From Ancylobacter koreensis (GTDB lineage: Bacteria > Pseudomonadota > Alphaproteobacteria > Rhizobiales > Xanthobacteraceae), in the NCBI RefSeq assembly GCF_023016525.1, contig NZ_JALKCG010000006.1, positions 124,001 through 188,000 of the forward strand: a DNA stretch of 64,000 nucleotides, in the 5' to 3' direction. Shown piece by piece: positions 51,165 to 51,403 of the stretch (positions are counted from its first letter, which is position 1; each line of letters starts with the position of its first letter). The notes below the pieces were generated by a model that did no database searches, was not told where the DNA came from, and saw only the letters and a program-made list of their open reading frames with translations. The translations under genes were made by a program, and so were the position numbers.

Positions 51165-51192
51165 GTGACGCCGACGCGAATCGGGCTAAGCT
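51165..51192 (+). promoter_or_regulatory. Possible promoter of the short ORF transcript
   Basis: GTGACG (51165-51170), 16-bp spacer, TAAGCT (51187-51192), 35 bp before the GTG at 51228. It is a weak match to sigma-70 consensus, listed because the downstream transcript is closed by its own terminator. Confidence 0.3.
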
Positions 51193-51227
51193 GCAATGGT
51201 CGTCAACAATTGAAAGGAGGTGATCCA

Positions 51228-51305
51228 GTGTCTGATCGTCTTGATCTGCGGTCGTCGGTATCCGTGACCTGGACGCTTGCCTCTTGCGAGGTCCGTGCCG
51301 CGTGA
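51228..51305 (+). CDS. 25-residue leader-like peptide behind an extreme Shine-Dalgarno
   Basis: GTG start at 51228, stop at 51303-51305; the peptide begins MSDRLDLRSSVSV and ends TWTLASCEVRAA. The sequence before it, GAAAGGAGGTGATCCAG (51212-51228), is fully complementary to about 17 nt of the bacterial 16S 3' end. The complementarity runs into the first base of the start codon, unlike an ordinary ribosome site. Downstream are a hairpin (51319-51335) and a terminator (51363-51397). The peptide resembles no protein I know. Function may be in translation, in holding ribosomes or as a leader; this is inference. Confidence 0.55.
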   Translation: MSDRLDLRSSVSVTWTLASCEVRAA

Positions 51306-51318
51306 TGCGACACTTCGC

Positions 51319-51335
51319 GCCGCCTTTTCGGCGGC
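51319..51335 (+). promoter_or_regulatory. Hairpin after the short ORF
   Basis: GCCGCC-TTTTC-GGCGGC, 14 nt after the short ORF stop and before the terminator; a possible regulatory partner stem in the same transcript. Confidence 0.55.
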
Positions 51336-51362
51336 TACCGGGCCGGACCGCGGTCTGACATG

Positions 51363-51397
51363 GGAGGGGCTGCCCGCGAGGGCAGCCCCTCTTTCTT
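51363..51397 (+). terminator. Rho-independent terminator of the short ORF transcript
   Basis: Stem of 11-12 bp (AGGGGCTGCCC/GGGCAGCCCCT) with GCGA tetraloop, then TTTCTT. It ends 7 nt before the YaiI start, so it could either terminate the small transcript or attenuate yaiI. Confidence 0.85.
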
Positions 51398-51403
51398 GAG
51401 CGG

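Follow-up and report, generated by a model that had tools for sequence, protein, structure and literature searches.

Type I toxin mRNAs combine a short open reading frame (ORF), a strong Shine–Dalgarno (SD) sequence and a structured transcript, and dual-function or attenuator RNAs such as rnTrpL of Sinorhizobium meliloti are short transcripts with a micro-ORF, rnTrpL itself being leaderless and part of the trp attenuator. A further class consists of predicted non-coding RNAs that proved to be translated. For Caulobacter, Schrader 2014 reports that most of its non-coding RNAs derive from intergenic regions in which ribosome profiling detects no translation, that two earlier predicted ones are in fact translated, and that 75.4% of starts are without an SD (PMC4117421). 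A Ribo-seq study of S. meliloti puts the translation efficiency of some annotated small RNAs (sRNAs) at 1 or higher and places 33% of its 54 newly found small ORFs on annotated sRNAs (PMC10117765).

The closest described relative of the RNA presented here is CC2171, a Caulobacter sRNA catalogued as Rfam family RF01867. In the literature that we searched on CC2171/RF01867, only two sources were found to concern the RNA, and neither these nor the other texts contained a statement about an ORF in CC2171. The first is a Mesorhizobium sRNA list, which records MH_s33, the family member in Mesorhizobium huakuii, with a product of 215 nt (PMC5596092); the second is the Rfam 15 paper, one table of which credits RF01867 with one additional covarying pair (PMC11701678). 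The ORF of CC2171 may already be recorded in the dataset of Schrader 2014.

Here we analyse a locus in a 64,000-nt stretch of Ancylobacter koreensis DNA (hereafter, the window). Its RNA shares with type I toxin mRNAs the short ORF, strong SD and structured transcript, whereas its peptide is unconserved between families and, by eye, has no hydrophobic membrane helix. Like rnTrpL, it is a short transcript with a micro-ORF, but it has a maximal SD and no neighbour conserved throughout.

A terminated micro-ORF unit upstream of yaiI

The unit sits between a minus-strand gamma-glutamyltranspeptidase gene and plus-strand yaiI, identified as DUF188 (E 4.5e-48), and all its features lie on the plus strand. 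Upstream, a promoter-like stretch read by eye (51165–51192) comprises GTGACG (51165–51170), a 16-nt spacer and TAAGCT (51187–51192), with a CcrM-type GANTC site, GAATC, between the two hexamers at 51178–51182. A sigma-70 consensus scan of the locus passed no promoter; we infer a transcription start at about 51198–51200. The leader motif CAACAA (51204–51209), recurring in relatives as CAAC(A), corresponds to the first positions of the RF01867 model in the cmscan alignment. It is followed by the extended SD GAAAGGAGGTGATCCAG (51212–51228), 17 nt perfectly complementary to the 16S rRNA 3′ end, the last G of which is the first base of a GTG start (51228–51230). The micro-ORF thus opened runs to a TGA stop (51228–51305) and encodes 25 residues (VSDRLDLRSSVSVTWTLASCEVRAA), for which a Pfam search returned no match.

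After a further 58 nt comes an intrinsic terminator, GAGGGGCTGCCC-GCGA-GGGCAGCCCCTC followed by TTTCTT (51364–51397), with its stem at 51364–51375/51380–51391 and a T-rich tail at 51392–51397; a consensus scan reported the inner part, 51378–51391. The predicted transcript is about 200 nt long, compared with the roughly 180 nt of a first-pass annotation made from the letters of the window, and the region 51195–51400 folds better than shuffled sequences (z −3.96). That annotation had described a 17-nt SD complementary to the 16S tail and overlapping a GTG, as well as a 25-residue frame followed by a strong terminator before yaiI, and both descriptions were confirmed at these coordinates.

A divergent homologue of RF01867 in Alphaproteobacteria

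At the Rfam gathering score, cmscan of the window yielded only a tRNA. At an E-value threshold it reported RF01867 at 51204–51389 with 70.6 bits (E 1e-14), a significant match to the full length of the model (positions 1–159) that lies 4.4 bits below the gathering score of 75 bits and so outside formal membership. Judged by sequence, the window RNA is a divergent homologue of a catalogued family, just outside it by Rfam's own rule, a relationship that the first-pass annotation had not recognised. The two share the 5′ SD/GUGUC block and the terminator. In one search all 11 loci matched RF01867, 5 of them above the cut-off; homologues ranged from 91.5 to 28 bits, and two with the layout of the window copy scored 88.6 (L010) and 91.5 bits (L103). 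Among 14 named control genomes, only Caulobacter vibrioides matched, above the cut-off.

Across 289 genomes of the class, RF01867 matched at E ≤ 0.001 in 66 genomes (73 places), with 10 genomes above the cut-off. The gathering score therefore seems strict, and most matches under it still carry the SD and ORF. A relaxed pattern found the RNA in 63 of the same 289 genomes, 13 of them outside the 66, which gives 79 by either route. The 271-nt region was matched in all 24 other genomes of the genus; 23 of these have AGGAGGTGATCCA / AGGAGGTGATCCAGTG exactly, and the 24th (L056) has one base changed. Within the order, exact AAAGGAGGTGATCCANTG occurred in 87 of 297 genomes, at one place per genome, and the reversed control occurred in none. 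In a sample of the phylum the exact 20-mer was present in 24 of 249 genomes, all among the 88 alphaproteobacterial ones and none among the 161 others. The first-pass annotation had named lack of conservation of the ORF or SD in relatives as the observation that would undo its reading; conservation was looked for and found across Alphaproteobacteria.

Contigs of named genomes gave at least 118 stretches. Among the 80 titles listed, most are alphaproteobacterial (Hyphomicrobiales, Rhodobacterales, Caulobacterales, Rhodospirillales and others), four read only 'Proteobacteria' or 'Pseudomonadota', and two bear other labels, L135 that of a gammaproteobacterial metagenome-assembled genome and L112 that of SAR92. 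In L112 the ORF behind the exact 20-mer has 44 codons and contains a GGPDGTRTRDL-type stretch, which we take to be typical of translated antisense tRNA, and this locus is probably unrelated to the RF01867-like RNA. No match was found in 50,697 phage records, on which ground a phage origin was rejected, and three were found in 72,556 plasmid records: the large plasmids NZ_CP086109.1 and NZ_CP086114.1 (Skermanella), with two places each, and NZ_CP090580.1 (Methylobacterium radiotolerans). The best plasmid match has no annotated gene under it in a gene table known to be incomplete. Six genomes (G329, G350, G452, G524, G544 and G550) have two or three RF01867 matches each; in G329 two matches carry the SD and a short ORF (one is L261), and the second or third matches fetched from G350, G524, G544 and G550 show no SD and are probably false.

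The SD core, start codon and ORF size are conserved

The 73 model matches from the 289 class genomes, which were selected by RF01867 itself, provide a fair set for asking what the family retains. In the 30 best, which include the window copy, the SD core and an ATG or GTG start codon stand at the same spacing in all 30; GAAAGGAGGTG is present in all but one, which has GGAAGGAGGTG. Codon 2 is Ser in 29, with a variable third base. Exact AAAGGAGGTGATCCA is found in 14, and the letters after GAAAGGAGGTG vary in 15 (GTCCA, ATCCG, ATCGA and ATCTC, for example). Of the 43 weaker matches, some of which start with TTG, 33 keep 11 or more of the 12 SD letters, bringing the SD core to 63 of 73. Among the remaining ten, L262 and L281 have 10 SD letters and look like true members, and eight show no SD and are probably false.

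ORF length was counted in the 63 matches, leaving out the ten with fewer than 11 of 12 SD letters, L262 and L281 included. All 63 have an ORF of 14–36 codons, as against a mean of 22.0 and a maximum of 34 in shuffled sequences and 16 and 20 in frames +1 and +2; for 14–27 codons the figures are 52 of 63, a shuffled mean of 15.2 with a maximum of 26, and 10 in each of the other frames. The 30 best alone all have 18–26 codons. These sequences are related, so the counts are not independent trials, although the peptides span quite different sequences. In a separate set of 181 unique sequences, whose selection by a pattern that includes the SD and RTG makes it no proof of SD conservation, 176 have an ORF of 14–27 codons; a further 30 relaxed-pattern loci, several shared with other sets, have 14–27 codons in 24 cases and 16–35 in all 30. 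We take this regularity to reflect selection that keeps a translated ORF within a limited size. By sequence, the family appears to be built around a translation start, a feature that is new within the literature searched, and the micro-ORF is probably translated.

Individual lineages vary this plan. L086, L092, L120 and seven other Bradyrhizobium-type sequences have a 14-codon ORF ending in CHLAGIAR. In L105, L133 and L145, the first two of which are Azospirillum records, the SD/start block opens an ORF of 57–59 residues with a signal-peptide-like start, followed in L105 by a terminator-like hairpin; the long ORF of this type is possibly an sRNA ORF that has grown into a secreted small protein.

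Long-range pairing between the ORF and the 3′ half in relatives

Because alignment with MAFFT and folding with RNAalifold gave no useful consensus for the whole HC/DR group of sequences, pairing was assessed by partner-swapping tests. Helix H1 pairs codons 3–5 with a strand adjoining the terminator. In the HC/DR group its mean energy is −9.55 with real partners, −8.49 after swaps within the group, −6.07 with a shuffled 3′ strand and −3.94 with partners from other groups; in a second (MSSE-type) group the values are −8.9 for real partners, −7.27 for swaps within the group and −5.24 for partners from other groups. H1 is weak in the Rhodobacterales and Devosia groups, in which exchanging partners inside the group gives pairing that is equally good or better, and was not found by this test in the Bradyrhizobium group. 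H1 is the outer helix of the Rfam structure (CAUUGUC/GACAAUG); in the window copy, four of its positions are marked as non-standard pairs in the RF01867 alignment, and window-type sequences average −7.25 against −9.55 for the whole HC/DR group.

A second helix, H2, emerged from the 51 of 90 HC/DR sequences that contain the H1 words CATTG and CAATG, reduced to 40 representatives among which the window's genus is absent. The 16 nt after the H1 5′ strand (about codons 5–10) were paired with the 18 nt before the H1 3′ strand. Mean duplex energy was −14.26, compared with −11.03 for permuted partners (s.d. 0.39, z −8.4, 0 of 5,000 permutations), with compensating pairs that include CCGCUU/AAGCGG, CCGCAG/CUGCGG, CUGCGG/CCGCAG, CCGUCA/UGACGG and CUACGG/CCGUGG. 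A control on the middle region gave z +2.2. In a second control, the 32 nt that come next were paired with the 3′ strand of the test and gave z −3.0; the limits of H2 are therefore approximate, and the helix may extend or overlap. Where the relatives show this long-range helix Rfam draws a local hairpin, and the local partner at that place was unsupported by the permutation test (z +1.5). H2 covaries strongly in one large clade; it is absent from Rfam's structure and new within the literature searched. The proposed window counterparts are GCGGUC (51248–51253), inside the micro-ORF at the position of the covarying strand in relatives, and GACCGC (51346–51351). There H2 lies outside the minimum-energy fold (−99.4 versus −96.6 kcal/mol with H2 enforced, P about 0.08).

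In some lineages a piece of the 16S tail also recurs inside the RNA, where it could act as an anti-SD. UCACCUC is present in 10 of 10 Bradyrhizobium sequences, CCTCC in 23 of 34 from Rhodobacterales (expected 10.0) and CACCTC in 4 of 5 from Devosia (expected 0.2). In the Bradyrhizobium type, UCACCUC can fold onto the SD, and the pairing probability of the start codon in the predicted ensemble is 1.0. These copies suggest that SD loading itself can be gated in such lineages; a universal SD-sequestering anti-SD found little support, the signal being strong only in these three. For the window's group, enrichment was confined to CTGGA words (75 of 90, expected 16.2), and because CTGGA encodes a recurrent Trp, peptide and RNA are indistinguishable as its cause.

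A fold that translating ribosomes may open

In one large clade, codons near the start of the ORF pair with bases just upstream of the terminator, forming a long-range stem that an initiating ribosome must unzip. We tentatively favour, at slightly less than an even chance, a stand-alone regulatory RNA in which ribosomes open the fold as they translate the micro-ORF. The molecule would be a free-standing, terminator-ended RNA of about 200 nt, with a maximal ribosome-docking site at its 5′ end and the micro-ORF in its first third. The SD would load a 30S subunit, initiation and the first codons would unzip the H1/H2 stem, and the ORF would end soon after. With a ribosome loaded, the 3′ half would be released, to pair with other bases, to bind protein or to take on another stability; with none, the RNA would close. 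From the sequence we infer translation, the conformational switch, its presence in the window's genus and any target in trans. As a hypothesis, a ribosome-sensing role fits this anatomy. Against this reading stand the low predicted probability of H2 and the non-standard H1 positions in the window copy, the failure of H1 to appear in the Bradyrhizobium group and its weakness in the Rhodobacterales and Devosia groups, and the silent excess in HC/DR ORFs described below, which would fit a role for the peptide. Further points against it are the ten of 73 model matches without an 11-of-12 SD core, the recurrence of yaiI downstream in several families and the finding of Schrader 2014 that most of its Caulobacter non-coding RNAs derive from intergenic regions without translation by ribosome profiling (PMC4117421).

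In one elaboration, near-perfect complementarity to the 16S tail would let the RNA gauge how many 30S subunits are free, with a single round of translation of the 14–36-codon ORF unzipping the ORF/3′ stem and exposing a regulatory 3′ half, and with Rhodobacterales, Bradyrhizobium and Devosia having gained an internal 16S-tail copy (CACCUCCU, UCACCUC and CACCUCC) that competes with the ribosome for the SD. That all these steps hold jointly, making RF01867 and its homologues switches that act in trans, would be a conjunction that we consider unlikely.

A different sRNA would fit equally well, one that acts by base pairing or protein binding and on which the SD and short ORF serve just to hold a ribosome at the 5′ end against decay, with no switch: the SD core, the start and the size of the ORF are conserved, the peptide is mostly free, and a terminator is usually present. 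Protection of this kind does not call for covariation of early codons with the pre-terminator strand, although the fold of the free RNA could make use of it, and we think it unlikely to be the explanation.

Selection on the peptide

We next consider whether the peptide could be the active product, the RNA being a small mRNA or a dual-function RNA. Silent changes were counted over single-base codon changes in 60 tree orders. In the window's genus 12.0 of 29.0 changes were silent against 8.6 expected (P 0.15); in the other 25-codon HC/DR ORFs 11.0 of 21.0 were silent against 5.9 (P 0.018), and the two pooled gave 22.6 of 49.7 against 14.4 (P 0.015). Rhodobacterales showed no silent excess (24.7 of 100.2 against 31.8, P 0.95), and the remaining groups had at most 7 usable codon changes each. 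Judged by eye, the peptides differ almost completely between families. On these sequence counts, purifying selection on the peptide was undetected in Rhodobacterales and appears weak to moderate in the window's wider group, and the act of translating the ORF may matter more than the peptide.

A peptide product would account for the limited ORF length, the excellent initiation signal, a codon 2 that is mostly Ser with a variable third base, the silent excess in 25-codon HC/DR ORFs outside the genus and the 57–59-residue Azospirillum versions with their signal-peptide-like start. It sits poorly with peptides that are almost wholly different between families, with the lack of a silent excess in Rhodobacterales and of a clear one in the window's genus, and with conserved sequence that in part tracks RNA pairing. 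We judge it quite unlikely.

The match to the 16S rRNA tail

No 16S 3′ end was found in the A. koreensis assembly with the patterns used, and the tail was therefore read in one genome of the same genus (G304). Its antisense is TAGAAAGGAGGTGATCCAGCCGCAGG, which matches the SD over 17 nt and stops exactly after CCAG. In agreement with the first-pass annotation, which had noted that the complementarity breaks there, no homology runs on into the 16S gene, and a 16S pseudogene is ruled out. The sequence AAAGGAGGTGATCC occurs once in the window and in none of 100 shuffles, AAAGGAGGTGATCCA with at most one mismatch once in the assembly, and the 11-mer AAAGGAGGTGA once in the whole 4.06-Mb assembly; the complement at 51212–51228 is the longest there. 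Four single-contig relatives of the same genus contain AAAGGAGGTGA twice each. In G304 one copy is the 16S gene and the other the RF01867-like RNA, and in the remaining three one of the two copies is the RF01867-like RNA.

A match of this length, drawn mostly unpaired at the 5′ end of the Rfam structure, could make the RNA a ribosome decoy: by forming a 17-nt duplex with the 16S tail it would titrate free 30S subunits or park them, and the ORF would be incidental. A decoy, however, needs neither the start codon, nor the Ser codon, nor the limited ORF length that the family conserves, and the variation beyond GAAAGGAGGTG in 15 of the 30 best loci means that the full 17 nt is not required. We regard a decoy as decidedly unlikely.

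Genomic setting and promoters

Neighbours were compared in 191 loci with at least 900 nt downstream, 29 of them window-type and 162 others. Every one of the 29 window-type loci is followed by yaiI in the same orientation. Among the 162 others the gene recurs in 11: L056, which belongs to the same genus, L022 and L108, where it is reversed, and eight from other groups on the same strand; no yaiI was found within the stretch searched in 151 of the 191. Other neighbours, with ORFs called mechanically, recur only in lineage-sized clusters, the largest of 36 loci. Of 181 sequences, 150 have a terminator-like hairpin, compared with 45 of 450 random windows; among the 30 relaxed-pattern loci, 21 have one. 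Since yaiI follows in only 11 of 162 loci outside the window type, the RNA is not a general yaiI leader, and its scarcity there, together with the usual terminator, makes a stand-alone RNA more likely than a leader, although in this genus the RNA may still act locally on yaiI.

These data bear on the proposal of the first-pass annotation that the RNA senses ribosomes or attenuates: a dedicated, terminated and conserved RNA with an extreme ribosome site and a micro-ORF stands, and attenuation of the neighbour as a general rule does not, with yaiI in 11 of 162 other loci and a terminator in between. A leader peptide or attenuator acting on the gene that follows, in the window yaiI, is favoured by the same-strand yaiI of every window-type locus and of 9 more among the 191, some from other families; the 151 loci without it, the two reversed cases, the merely lineage-sized clusters of other neighbours and the intervening terminator argue against one, and we hold it to be very unlikely. 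A general attenuator of yaiI, which would have the same downstream gene throughout the family, was rejected (yaiI in 40 of 191, two reversed). That the locus is a 16S rRNA fragment or a chance match has next to no probability: its 17 nt are identical to the 16S antisense, but the identity ends at CCAG, a different continuation is conserved across the class, and neither the 100 shuffles nor the reversed pattern in 297 genomes gave a match.

GANTC lies at −60 to −15 in each of the 24 distinct upstream sequences of the window type, against 3.9 in shuffles, and in 30 of 64 of the remaining HC/DR group (9.8 in shuffles), or 54 of 88 pooled; it is present in 12 of 32 and 5 of 10 sequences of two other groups, 1 of 33 from Rhodobacterales and 0 of 5 of the Devosia type. 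For Caulobacter, Zhou 2015 reports activation at 40–60 min of those cell-cycle-regulated promoters that have GANTC between −10 and −35 (PMC4287350). The CcrM GANTC site in the promoter may tie the RNA to the cell cycle in many Hyphomicrobiales, which we offer as a lead only. Rhodobacterales-type loci (L062, L070, L118 and L152, for example) have a CAAAATCTGTG-like stretch upstream of the SD, often an imperfect palindrome; unlike the GANTC promoters of other groups, it may be a regulator site.

Implications

A widespread RNA catalogued as a plain sRNA seems to have at its core a ribosome-binding site, one that in the window's assembly makes the longest match to the 16S tail. The covarying helix H2 offers a better structure for part of the RF01867 family. 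If translation is what operates the RNA, cells would have in it a compact, natural means of gauging initiation capacity, and the start codon, SD and H2 would be clear handles on the role of CC2171.
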